Source of the DNA: Atopobiaceae bacterium | GTDB taxonomy: Bacteria; Actinomycetota; Coriobacteriia; Coriobacteriales; Atopobiaceae | NCBI GenBank assembly: GCA_017545665.1 | Contig: JAFWKQ010000115.1 | Span: forward strand, 1 to 64,000 | Reading direction: 5' to 3' | DNA length: 64,000 nt | Part shown: piece after piece, positions 47,821-52,475 of the stretch | Layout of the letters: the number at the start of each line of letters is the position of its first letter | How positions within the stretch are numbered: position 1 is the first letter of the stretch | Made by a program: the position numbers and the translations under genes | The notes under the pieces: model-generated | The model's input: only the letters and a program-made list of their open reading frames with translations | The model's database searches: none | What the model was told of the DNA's origin: nothing

Positions 47821-48995
47821 CAACGTTCAGGAGGGCTCGCGTGTATTTGGACTACGCGGCTTCGGCTCCCATGCGCCCAGAGGCAATAGAGGCCGAGCAC
47901 GCCTATGAGCTAGCACCCTATGCGGGAGCAAACCCCAACTCGCTGCATTCGGCCGGACGGGAGGCGGCCCGTGCCCTAGACGGGGCTCGACGAGATTTGG
48001 CGCGCCTTCTGGGAGGTCGCTTTAGGCCTGCCGACATTGTGTTTACCTCGGGTGGCACCGAGAACAACAACCTTGCGATTGTGGGCATGGCGCAGGGAGC
48101 GCGCGCCAAGGATCGAAAGAGGAAGCGCGTGCTTTTGTCGGCCATCGAACACGATTCGGGCCTGGACGTGGCACCGCACCTTCGTGACTTGGGCTTTGAG
48201 GTGGAACTGCTCCAACCATCGCGCCAAGGGGTGGTGGTGCCTGAGGTGTTGGAAGAGTCGCTTGGGAGCGACGTTGCCTTGGTGTCGGTGATGGCCGCAA
48301 ACAACGAGACGGGTGTCTTGCAGCCGATTGCAGAACTCTCCCAATTGGCCAAATCGTCGGGAGCGTCGTTCTACACCGATGCCGCCCAGGGCTTTGGCAA
48401 GGTGCCGCTTGACGTGAGCCATTGTGATGCGGTGGGGATCGTGGGCCACAAGATCGGTGCTCCGGTTGGCACTGGGGCGTTGGCCATACGTGGTGGCGTG
48501 CCGATGCGTCCCCAGACCTTTGGCGGCGGACAAGAGCGCGGCATTCGCCCTGGCACCCAAGACGTTCGTGGCGCCCTGGCCCTGTGCGCAGCTGCCAAGG
48601 CGAGCTATGCGAACCTCGCGCAAAAAAGAGCAGCGGTGGCGGCTCGGGCGGAGCGGCTGTACCGGTGCATCTGTGCGGAGGACACGCATATTTTGCCAAC
48701 CACCACTACGAGCGTGGGGGAGGACCGTCTGCCGGGCATGGTAAGCGTGCTGGTTCCCGGTGCGGATTCGGAGTCGCTCGTTCTGCGGTTGGATGCGATG
48801 GGCTTCGAGGTGAGCGCCGCATCGGCATGTGCGAGCGGCTCTTTGGACGCAAGCCACGTTCTTACGGCGATGGGGATTCCGCGCGACCAAGCGTTGGGCT
48901 CCCTGCGCGTGTCGTTTGACGAGCGCGTTTCTGAGCACGACCTTGACGCCTTTGCGGATGCGCTGCTTGCCGTTGTTTCCGACCTTACGGCATGA
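47817..48995 (+). CDS. Cysteine desulfurase (IscS/NifS family)
   Basis: This 392-residue PLP enzyme takes sulfur from cysteine for iron-sulfur clusters or tRNA thiolation. The PLP lysine Lys212 (GHKIGAP) and the catalytic Cys338 in ASACASGS are intact. TSGGTENNNLA and the GTQDV segment are typical of class I enzymes. No IscU, IscR or mnmA lies beside it, so the acceptor is unclear. It could supply the iron-sulfur MEP enzymes in this window, but that is inference. Confidence 0.93.
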   Translation: MTTFRRARVYLDYAASAPMRPEAIEAEHAYELAPYAGANPNSLHSAGREAARALDGARRDLARLLGGRFRPADIVFTSGGTENNNLAIVGMAQGARAKDRKRKRVLLSAIEHDSGLDVAPHLRDLGFEVELLQPSRQGVVVPEVLEESLGSDVALVSVMAANNETGVLQPIAELSQLAKSSGASFYTDAAQGFGKVPLDVSHCDAVGIVGHKIGAPVGTGALAIRGGVPMRPQTFGGGQERGIRPGTQDVRGALALCAAAKASYANLAQKRAAVAARAERLYRCICAEDTHILPTTTTSVGEDRLPGMVSVLVPGADSESLVLRLDAMGFEVSAASACASGSLDASHVLTAMGIPRDQALGSLRVSFDERVSEHDLDAFADALLAVVSDLTA

Positions 48996-49216
48996 GCAAG
49001 GGTCGGCAACGCCTGAACCCGTGGCCCAATCTAGCAATAATTACTGCAATAGATATAAATTAAATATCACCTTACTATATTGTATAAAAACGATTAGAAT
49101 ATCTTACGCGGAAAGAGAGGCAAGGAACCCTCTCTCCGCAGCAGACTCAAGATAGTATTACATCTGAGCTGCCTGTCCGCTATATCGTGACGACTGTAAA
49201 CAGAAAGAGGACTCCT

Positions 49217-51580
49217 ATGGGAACCGCAAGTATCTACGATGTGATGACTTCCAGGCGGGAGGTAAATGCGAACCAAAGGGCTTGGAAGTACATTCGGGAC
49301 CTGAACGAAGTGACGGCTGGCGATCTGAACAAGACGGCCATCATCGACGGTAACAAAGAATACACCTATGGCCAAATGTTTAGAGAATGGGAGCGCCACG
49401 CCTCGGTCTTTTCCGCTCTGGGCATGACGGAGAAGGAGCATGCTCGGGTTGGCATCCTGGGCTCTCCCAGCGCTGAGACCATCTTCGCGTTTTACGGCCT
49501 CAATATGGTGGGCGCAGAGATTTCGTTGGTGTCGTCGTGGACGGCGTTCAATTTCACTCGCGTCAAAGACTCCATCGTCATGGAGAAGCTGACGGATATT
49601 ATCCTCACCGACGATTTGGTTCAGCAGGATCTCGTTCGGGAGCTCTTGCTTAACCGGAAGGAGCTGGGGCTTCGTCATGTGATTATCCTGCATGTGCCCA
49701 TTGCAGGCCCCGCCACCATCCCCATGCTGACGGCGGCTCAGGAGGCCAAATACGCTCTCGTGAAGACGCTCTATCATCCTATCTGCATGGAGACCCTGCT
49801 GGCGGCATATGGCAACCATCCGGTCCATTACGCTTCCCAGGAGCTCAGCCAAACCGCATTCATCCTTCATACCTCCGGCACCACGAGCGGAGTGGGAACG
49901 CCCGTGCCTCTGTCGGACAGCGCGTTGAACGAGGCAGTGGCGAGGTTCTTGATGGTGAAGGATCTCTCGCTGCCCGAGCATCTGGTGACCTCCATGATAG
50001 TGGATCTTAGCAACTCCTACGGCATCATCACCCAGGTTCATTTGCCCTTCGCCGTGGGCGGGACGGTGGCCGTCGTGCCGTTTGGCATGCTGAATCCTTG
50101 GTTCTACAAGGCCGTCTCGGCCTATCGCATCTCGTTCCTGTTTACCATCAACTCCATGTTCGAGCGTTGGATGAGACTGCCCGAGGACACGGTATTCGAC
50201 TTCTCCAGCCTGAAGTTCGTGGCCCTTGGTGGCGCGGCGGTATCGGCGGCGGAAAAGAGGCGCTACCACGAATTCATCGAGGCCCACGGTGGCAAGGACG
50301 TGACGATCCTGAACGGCTACGGCCTGTCGGAGCTTGGCGCCGCCTGCTGTCTGTCCTCGCCGGATCTGGATGACGAAGCCATCGGCTATCCGATGCCGGG
50401 GATTGACGTCCGGCTCTGCGATGACGAGACCGGCAGCTTCTTCTCCCCCGAGGGCGAGACCAGCGAAGGCGTGCTCTACTTGAGCAGCAAGTCAATGGCC
50501 ACGCCGACGCTGGACGGCGAGGAAGTCATCAAAGTGCAGATGATCGACCAAAAGCCCTATGTATGCACCAACGATTTTGTACGTGTGGATGAGGACGGAA
50601 AGATCACCTATCTGGGCCGTGCCAACCGCTTCTTCCTGCGTGAAGAGGGAAGGAAATACGAATCCGGAAGGGTGGAGGCGGAGTTCTCCCGCCTGGCATC
50701 CATCGAGAACTGCGGTATCGTGCCTGTATACCACAAGCAGAGTCATGAAAGCGTCCCCATGCTGTGCGTCAAGACCTTGGACGATGCGGGCGACCCCAAG
50801 GACGTCATCGTCCAGGCGCTTAAGCAGGTGTTCATCGACGATAAGACCCTGCCGGAGGAATACGTTCCCCTTCAAGTGATGCTGGCGGAGAAGCTTCCCC
50901 TGAACGCCAACGGGAAGGTCGACTTGTTCCAGCTCAACAGGGGCATGGTCGATGGCGAAAAGTACTCGGTGGAGCCCGTTTACGAAAACGACCAGCTGAC
51001 CGATTTCGAGCTGGCCCCCGTCGAGGAAGGACCTTCGGATATCGTCCAGATGGCTATTGACGAGATATCCGACGGCATGAGAGAGAGCATGTCCACAAAC
51101 AAGTTTATGGAAATACTGAGGAAGGAATCCCCGTCCATGAGCGACATCAGCGAAGCGTTGGTTGGGAATCTGGATTCCATGAACCAGATGTACCAGCAGT
51201 CAATGAGAAATACGTTCAGTATGATGGGTCAGACATTCCCCTGGTTCAGCCAGTTCACGCCTCCTCAGACGCCCGAAATGGTCAGCATAAGGGAAATGAT
51301 GTCCGATGCCGAGGCAGTGATGCCCGACATGCAAACAATAGCGCAGGACATGCAGGAGATGATGGCGAACGCTCCGTCCATGATGAGGGGCATGGCACAG
51401 GCCATGCTGCCGATGTTCCACCAGCAGCACGTCCAGATGCTGTCCAACATGGGCAAGATGAATCAGATTGCGTTCGATGCGACGAAGCGCCTCCACGAGC
51501 AGAACGGCGAGATTGTCAAGGAGTGGTTCGCCATGGCCATGAAGATGACCGGCGCAGAGCCCAATGGGGCGAAGGAGTAG
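49217..51580 (+). CDS. AMP-binding (acyl-CoA synthetase-like) enzyme with a Met-rich helical tail
   Basis: This 787-residue protein starts as an ANL-superfamily adenylating enzyme (about 25-590). The P-loop is unusual (TSGTTSGVGTPVPLS; the common form is TSGTTGxPKG and lacks no lysine), while YGLSE (A5 motif) and LPLNANGKVD with the C-domain catalytic lysine are conserved. Residues about 620-787 form an extra region very rich in Met, Gln and Phe, predicted helical, ending in a segment reminiscent of phasins. No acyl-carrier domain is seen. The upstream 220 bases are AT-rich. The substrate is unknown. The ATG at 49,217 follows AGAGGA. Confidence 0.8.
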   Translation: MGTASIYDVMTSRREVNANQRAWKYIRDLNEVTAGDLNKTAIIDGNKEYTYGQMFREWERHASVFSALGMTEKEHARVGILGSPSAETIFAFYGLNMVGAEISLVSSWTAFNFTRVKDSIVMEKLTDIILTDDLVQQDLVRELLLNRKELGLRHVIILHVPIAGPATIPMLTAAQEAKYALVKTLYHPICMETLLAAYGNHPVHYASQELSQTAFILHTSGTTSGVGTPVPLSDSALNEAVARFLMVKDLSLPEHLVTSMIVDLSNSYGIITQVHLPFAVGGTVAVVPFGMLNPWFYKAVSAYRISFLFTINSMFERWMRLPEDTVFDFSSLKFVALGGAAVSAAEKRRYHEFIEAHGGKDVTILNGYGLSELGAACCLSSPDLDDEAIGYPMPGIDVRLCDDETGSFFSPEGETSEGVLYLSSKSMATPTLDGEEVIKVQMIDQKPYVCTNDFVRVDEDGKITYLGRANRFFLREEGRKYESGRVEAEFSRLASIENCGIVPVYHKQSHESVPMLCVKTLDDAGDPKDVIVQALKQVFIDDKTLPEEYVPLQVMLAEKLPLNANGKVDLFQLNRGMVDGEKYSVEPVYENDQLTDFELAPVEEGPSDIVQMAIDEISDGMRESMSTNKFMEILRKESPSMSDISEALVGNLDSMNQMYQQSMRNTFSMMGQTFPWFSQFTPPQTPEMVSIREMMSDAEAVMPDMQTIAQDMQEMMANAPSMMRGMAQAMLPMFHQQHVQMLSNMGKMNQIAFDATKRLHEQNGEIVKEWFAMAMKMTGAEPNGAKE

Positions 51581-51746: not shown

Positions 51747-52475
51747 ATGAAAGAGACAGAAGCGCTGGTGCGCATGCAAGAGATCGACCTCGCGCTTATG
51801 CGTGACAAACGCATGTTGGCCAACATGCCGCAAGCAAAAAAACTGCAGGCCGTGAGTGCTGCGCGCAAGAAGGTGGCCAGTGAACTCACCAAGATCGTGG
51901 GGCTTCGCAAGGATGCCCAGATGGATTTGGACGAGAACGAGGCCACGCACTTGGACCTTGAGGAAGAGGCGACGGCCATTCGCCAGAGGTATGAGTCGGA
52001 GACCTTAGGATACCGTGAGATCTCGGACCTGGAGGCGCAGCTCACCACCATTGCAAAGCGCATAGAGAAGCTCGAGTTCAAGCACAAGGACCTGGCGGCA
52101 CGGCTGCAGAAGGTGCAAAAGGCGGAACGAAACGCGCTTACCGTTGACGAGCAGCTCAAATCCGAGGGTGTTGCACAGCTGCGTTCGCTCAAGGAGCAGT
52201 CCGCCGATATTGAGCGCGATATGGCCGCACTCACTGCCGAGCGCGCGCAAGTGCGCGGTGAGGTGTCCGACAGGGTGCTGGAACGCTACGATAAGGCGAT
52301 GGTACGCTTTGGCGGCATGGCGGTGGAGACGTTGCGGGGCAATCAGCCCTCCATTTGCAGGGTAACGGTCCCCCCGAGCTCATTTGCCGACATACGCAAG
52401 GGTCCCAGCATTTCGGAATGCCCGTATTGCCATCGAATACTCGTTACAGACGGCATGTTCGACCTCGATGAGTAG
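51747..52475 (+). CDS. Coiled-coil protein with C-terminal zinc ribbon
   Basis: This 242-residue protein is a long coiled coil (about 1-185) followed by a zinc-ribbon-like end. Cys204, Cys225 and Cys228 (in ECPYC) are visible, with His229 as a possible fourth ligand, and the VTVPPSSFADIRKG stretch is typical of the family (C4-type zinc ribbon, related to chlamydial CT398). In other bacteria such proteins sit near coaBC or nif3-type genes; function is poorly known, with links to type III secretion or RNA in some. GGAGG precedes the ATG. Its end overlaps coaBC by eight bases. Confidence 0.85.
   Translation: MKETEALVRMQEIDLALMRDKRMLANMPQAKKLQAVSAARKKVASELTKIVGLRKDAQMDLDENEATHLDLEEEATAIRQRYESETLGYREISDLEAQLTTIAKRIEKLEFKHKDLAARLQKVQKAERNALTVDEQLKSEGVAQLRSLKEQSADIERDMAALTAERAQVRGEVSDRVLERYDKAMVRFGGMAVETLRGNQPSICRVTVPPSSFADIRKGPSISECPYCHRILVTDGMFDLDE

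Follow-up and report, generated by a model that had tools for sequence, protein, structure and literature searches.

The gene at 49217-51580 of the window (the whole stretch of 64,000 nucleotides that was analysed) poses the question of what an adenylating enzyme does with a long methionine-rich tail: to which branch of its superfamily the enzyme belongs, and whether the tail attaches it to a surface, a granule or a partner. An earlier note on this DNA had described an enzyme with such a tail following the AMP-binding fold, and both parts of that description are borne out by the open reading frame and by a tail of 182 residues with 16% Met. The gene and its start are as follows.

49217-51580, forward strand: coding sequence of an A-type adenylating enzyme with a Met-rich tail (787 aa, or 797 aa if read from the GTG at 49187)
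49204-49211, forward strand: Shine-Dalgarno-like sequence AAAGAGGA, read directly from the DNA, 5 nt before the ATG at 49217

The frame is likewise open from the alternative GTG at 49187, which lies 30 bases upstream of the ATG. The ATG is favoured because of the spacing of AAAGAGGA and because the N-termini of homologues agree with it, in keeping with the start (49217, 787 aa) adopted in the earlier note. Residues are numbered here from the GTG, and 10 is to be subtracted to obtain the numbering of that note. Upstream, a gene for a NifS-like cysteine desulfurase ends at 48995, and downstream the next gene begins at 51747. The other neighbours, judged from their translations, are presumably housekeeping genes (a Der-type GTPase, PlsY, GpsA, Rpe, Dfp, Nfo and an ABC-F protein); among these the enzyme gene stands alone, and an adjoining esterase is absent.

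Four features of the enzyme core bear on its identity.

49322-50500, forward strand: AMP-binding N-domain (PF00501), residues 46-438, Pfam E=4.9e-40
49868-49906, forward strand: P-loop HTSGTTSGVGTPV, residues 228-240, exceeding the consensus by one residue and with Thr238
50672-50917, forward strand: C-terminal ANL subdomain with the invariant Lys577 (A10 motif, NANGKVD), a sub-threshold Pfam match
50954-51019, forward strand: beta hairpin following the A10 Lys (residues 590-611), seen in every subtype aligned

By profile and by fold, the product is a member of the ANL adenylating superfamily. It scores 137.9 bits against PF00501 (cut-off 29.9), with a sub-threshold match to AMP-binding_C in Pfam (E=0.018), and an AlphaFold2 model based on 26 aligned members has the full ANL fold with a high-confidence core. 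The Gly-rich loop is retained, and YGxSE, Asp463 (A7), Arg478 (A8) and Lys577 (A10) are invariant across the 26 aligned sequences. The top folds returned by Foldseek (E ~1e-31) are luciferases, 4-coumarate-CoA ligase, and anthranilate- and benzoate-CoA ligases, nearest relatives in structure that make an acyl-CoA synthetase a plausible identity. With this acyl/aryl-CoA synthetase branch (PF00501; luciferase, 4-coumarate-CoA ligase, benzoate-CoA ligase) the protein has in common the whole fold, YGxSE, the A7 Asp, the A8 Arg and the A10 Lys, whereas it differs in its 15-20% identity, in the additional P-loop residue, in the extra beta hairpin after the A10 Lys and in the Met/Pro-rich tail. Many ANL models in NCBIfam match it, none at its curated cut-off (the best scores 91.8 bits against the 476 required), and a search of a plasmid collection returned general ANL enzymes only, at 20-25% identity, none of which covers 80% of the query.

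Activation of an amino acid by an NRPS- or DltA-like enzyme, which would load a carrier or make a peptide instead of acting as an acyl-CoA synthetase, is very unlikely. It would agree with weak similarity to A-domain and DltA models, with a beta-aminoacyl-ACP synthetase among the PDB sequence matches, and with a DLS/FDFS motif at 273-275. In our own reading of the alignment with luciferase, however, the DLS motif is displaced upstream by three residues from the expected A4 position, for which reason amino-acid specificity was no longer read from it; the top folds are luciferase, 4-coumarate-CoA ligase and aryl-CoA ligases, and Pfam recognises no carrier domain in the proteins.

The P-loop had been noted before as a departure from the consensus, and it is one on two levels. 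All aligned sequences have a loop one residue longer than the consensus, of the form H-[ST]-[ST]-G-[ST]-[TV]-x-G-x-x-K-P, and the copy in the window alone has Thr238 (codon 49898-49900), where 25 of 25 aligned homologues have Lys. Since the longer loop and the Lys are found in all 25 homologues, the departure combines a group trait with one private substitution. The standard P-loop spacing with Lys, which the product of 49217-51580 lacks, is not required for membership of the ANL superfamily as a whole. Thr238 may alter ATP binding, could lower the activity of this copy, or may be the sign of a divergent copy.

A search with the protein delimits a tight group at E < 1e-40, which is present in 6 of the 298 genomes of the class, in 3 of 119 from the family of the closest homologue (G237), in 1 of 397 from the family of Butyrivibrio, and in about half of the genomes of the genus from which the window comes. 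The set is thus rare and patchy, occurring in one Coriobacteriia-like lineage and in a few Lachnospiraceae, the named holders among the latter being Butyrivibrio sp. LC3010 and three MAGs, at least one of them from the rumen. In the tree, a quick one with SH-aLRT support only and a long-branch warning, the group is separate from other ANL enzymes of the same genomes and divides into at least five subtypes: A has 13 sequences, including that of 49217-51580, B and C have 7 each, D has 3, and the remaining, smaller ones are termed E. Lachnospiraceae sequences interleave within subtype A with those from the order of the window's source, and the sequence of a Lachnospiraceae MAG (L039) falls within the same half of the subtype as the protein under study. 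Because of this interleaving and nesting, the tree suggests that A-type genes may have been transferred between phyla. A fragment of 153 aa that resembles the N-terminal part of A-type proteins (L019 1459-1917, in G011 C48), located away from a contig end, is likely a decayed copy.

No library that was searched has a name for the group, and the literature consulted, of incomplete coverage and with few subscription papers, contains no description of it or of Met-rich or phasin tails on ANL enzymes. It is therefore apparently undescribed, and constitutes a new architecture and partner set within the ANL superfamily. The earlier proposal of a new branch of the family agrees with these results, the group being well separated from other ANL enzymes, matched by no curated model and marked by its own P-loop.

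The tail itself comprises the following.

51032-51577, forward strand: Met-rich tail, residues 616-797 (182 aa, 16% Met), predicted helical with low confidence
51383-51547, forward strand: long predicted amphipathic helix, residues 733-787, containing the best Phasin_2 match (51416-51547), below cut-off

Methionine accounts for 29 of the 182 tail residues, against 3.1% of the core (binomial p=3e-15 for a background of 2.5%). Of the enrichment in Met, Gln and Phe claimed earlier, that in Met is pronounced, Gln stands at 9%, and that in Phe is weak, at 4%. The tail, whose absence from close homologues the earlier note had named as an argument against its significance, is present in them. In the closest homologue (G237), which is 72% identical overall and comes from a different family within the order, the tail is 59% identical (dN 0.26, dS 0.64, dN/dS ~0.4) and the core 76% identical (dN 0.16, dS 0.58, dN/dS 0.28). 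These ratios indicate a translated tail on which purifying selection acts, though less strongly than on the core. Low-complexity tails can arise by drift or act as spacers. A spacer or solubility appendage of little function, with weak selection on its composition, would account for the low-complexity repeats, the low pLDDT, the faster evolution of the tail than of the core, and the existence of a short-tailed member (L056, 646 aa). We consider such an appendage quite unlikely, in view of the dN/dS of ~0.4 against G237, of predicted helices more amphipathic than composition gives, of the independent fusion or separation of the module, and of similar tails in two phyla.

AlphaFold2 draws tail helices at 619-634, 637-644, 651-683 and 733-787, and so the earlier description of the tail as helical stands as a prediction, but one of low confidence (pLDDT about 40-62, and ~61 in the longest helix, 733-787). 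The model of a B-type tail (mean pLDDT 44) was too poor for a fold search. A PDB sequence search with the tails found no resembling solved structure, and PHROGs contained nothing for the tail of 49217-51580; a weak match between a Butyrivibrio tail and a phage tail-protein family in the same resource was set aside as probably due to low complexity. The last helix of the tail has a hydrophobic moment exceeding that of shuffles of its own letters (whole-helix p=0.014), as does the C-terminal helix of other A-type tails (p=0.010, 0.004, <0.001 and 0.001; weaker in a fifth).

Against the tail alone, Phasin_2 (PF09361) gives E=0.0014 and 19.3 bits, below its gathering cut-off of 24.9. When the genome was searched in six frames, this tail came out as its best Phasin_2 match (16.3 bits versus 24.9), and the best genome-wide match in Butyrivibrio (G372) and in G007 is likewise an A-type tail. 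Matches in all three genomes begin at profile position 3-7, and the tails score 15-19 bits overall, always below cut-off; as the tails of the three genomes are mutually homologous, these matches are not independent, and at this permissive threshold control genomes also have Phasin_2 matches, likewise below the cut-off. Shuffled segments gave no match (0 of 20), a sample too small for a strict error rate. The tail is hence the most phasin-like stretch of its genome and lies outside the phasins by the family's own test. The term phasin-like, as used in the earlier note, captures the best match in three genomes but goes beyond scores that are all below cut-off and that controls produce too; as a mode of action it is suggestive. 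In common with phasins (Phasin_2; PhaF), the tails are low-complexity protein, predicted to be amphipathic and helical, with a weak profile match and, in some members, K/A/T/P-rich basic ends, while they differ in scoring below the family cut-off, in being fused to an enzyme and in occurring where no PHA pathway was found. The basic ends, rich in Lys, Ala, Thr and Pro, belong to the tails of L040, L042 and L071, and resemble the histone-like end of PhaF.

These observations bear on the strict reading, distinctly improbable in our view, of the tail as a genuine phasin domain by which an acyl-CoA synthetase would be anchored to a storage granule, of PHA type or another, or to a lipid body. The best genome-wide Phasin_2 matches do fall in tails, those of L040, L042 and L071 end basic like PhaF, and an acyl-CoA synthetase, ACS1, is reported on the PHA granule surface of Pseudomonas putida (cited in PMC5658603). 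The likeness to ACS1, drawn from that description and not from sequence, would lie in a putative acyl-CoA synthetase activity, whereas no PHA synthase was found here. Phasin_2 never reaches its cut-off, and PhaC_N, the mark of PHA synthase, is absent from G000 and from eight other family-bearing genomes, with a Caulobacter control positive. As none of the genomes searched has PhaC_N, a PHA granule is improbable, and in the strict sense it was set aside on this ground. A WS/DGAT search directed at lipid droplets gave no match, but carries no weight as its control was equally silent; nor was an enzyme of any other polymer or of droplets recognised.

Most subtypes have an abundance of Met, Pro, Phe or Gln in their tails, with M-P repeats (MPPMPPMP) in other A- and B-types and with M-N-P and Q-N-M-M-P repeats in Butyrivibrio, and the tails differ greatly from member to member in composition and in length (110-348 residues). 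Standalone MP-rich proteins that carry no enzyme adjoin C-type genes. Their homology to D-type tails (BLASTP with SEG masking, 8e-21 and 4e-15; common end ...LFGASNTDYFYED) shows that one module exists both fused and free; in two genomes the MP-rich protein is fused on as a tail. An acidic-aromatic C-terminal end (DYFYED, EYFYED, KYYED) is common to the free and fused forms.

L045 4331-5305, L049 7910-8590, L046 13090-15852, L047 5999-8893 and L080 8433-10913: free MP-rich proteins and D-type tails with the acidic-aromatic C-terminal end

Similar ends (DHDFEE, RYIEE) are found on the C- and E-type proteins of L040 and L054, and the acidic-aromatic end is a possible targeting or docking peptide. 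The tail as a whole might likewise be a docking arm that binds a specific partner, either the C-type esterase-ligase or a carrier protein, with no surface or condensate role. A module found both fused and separate, the conserved C-terminal helices and the recurrent esterase partner all speak for docking, which we nonetheless hold to be rather unlikely, since the variable length and composition of the tails are more readily understood for a surface or a scaffold than for a single fixed interface, and no carrier protein was recognised in the clusters.

Esterases recur in the company of the group. C-type enzymes possess an N-terminal Abhydrolase_3/BD-FAE esterase domain, and free HSL/BD-FAE-type esterases adjoin family genes of several subtypes in both phyla. 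These hydrolases belong to the known BD-FAE/HSL families (PF20434, PF07859), and are distinguished here by adjoining or being fused to ANL enzymes. The Butyrivibrio esterase-ligase fusion (L040 11189-14344) groups with E-like sequences, not with the other C-type fusions, and so the fusion may have arisen twice. An A-type gene, a second ANL gene, an MP-rich protein and a hydrolase share one cluster in Butyrivibrio C4, MAG L042 and G007. G000 has four family genes on four contigs, and in its genus all four genomes with a B-type gene (4/4) also have A and C, at unlinked places. The recurrence of fusions, of clusters and of B with A and C points to one functional set. The survey of homologues for the same fusion and neighbours, which the earlier note had proposed, thus found the tail to recur and added paralogues, standalone tail-like proteins and esterase partners, a wider set than that note had described.

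Other genes also occur in these neighbourhoods. Three genomes, from two phyla, have Y_phosphatase3 (PF13350) genes in the vicinity of family genes (L042 607-1407, L054 15226-16287, L048 6888-8015), and SDF dicarboxylate symporters with an N-terminal extension lie beside family genes (L054 16947-18542, L047 4119-5888). Beside A-type genes in both phyla is an amino-acid-type ABC system whose ATPase is extended at its C-terminus (L041 380-3725, L053 6841-9511). SpoIIE-type phosphatases adjoin A-type genes in two phyla (L039 8658-10424, L043 6629-7645), which suggests partner-switching regulation.

The best explanation, held tentatively and put somewhat short of an even chance, is that the protein represents subtype A of a hitherto undescribed carboxylate-activating ANL group, which forms a set with HSL/BD-FAE-type esterases and MP-rich proteins and whose tails gather the enzymes. 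It builds on the ANL fold, the retained catalytic motifs, the conserved tail, the recurrent fusions and the gene association computed here. In the mechanism that we infer, an esterase would free a carboxylic acid from an ester, and the ANL domain, coupled to it, would convert the acid to an acyl-AMP and then most likely to a CoA thioester, with CoA as acceptor. The Met/Pro/Phe/Gln-rich tails and MP-rich proteins would act through amphipathic helices to keep the enzymes in one place, be it a self-assembled cluster or a hydrophobic surface, as phasins do with proteins of PHA granules. The enzymatic half of this mechanism rests on family knowledge and the intact motifs, and the association of the partners on fusions and on the proximity of their genes; assembly or surface binding is proposed from the composition of the tails, their amphipathic helices and their weak match to phasins. 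Counted against this explanation are the Phasin_2 scores below cut-off, the low-pLDDT tails, the lack of a PHA synthase, the lone position of the gene and Thr238.

A further reading, for which we see a small but appreciable chance, is a PHA-free, phasin-like membraneless compartment exchanged between gut Actinomycetota and Bacillota, in which Met/Pro-rich tails and MP-rich scaffolds would condense or coat a hydrophobic store and co-localise esterases and carboxylate-activating enzymes, possibly under redox control by Met oxidation. Yeast Pbp1/ataxin-2 possesses a Met-rich low-complexity domain (PMC8394241). The tails resemble it in their unusual Met content, in that the region could self-associate and in that reversible Met oxidation is a possible control, whereas Pbp1/ataxin-2 is a eukaryotic, RNA-binding protein, likened to the tails by composition and with no homology to them.

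If the tails gather enzymes, as in the explanation preferred here, the set would represent a PHA-free bacterial counterpart of the enzyme layers associated with granules, or a Met-rich enzyme condensate. To our knowledge, condensates built on Met-rich sequence are otherwise known from yeast and human proteins. As the MP-rich module occurs fused and free, and with different enzymes, its role is testable by deletion or swapping. The group is an unnamed one of ANL enzymes in gut bacteria, and its substrate may bear on the handling of plant-derived esters.
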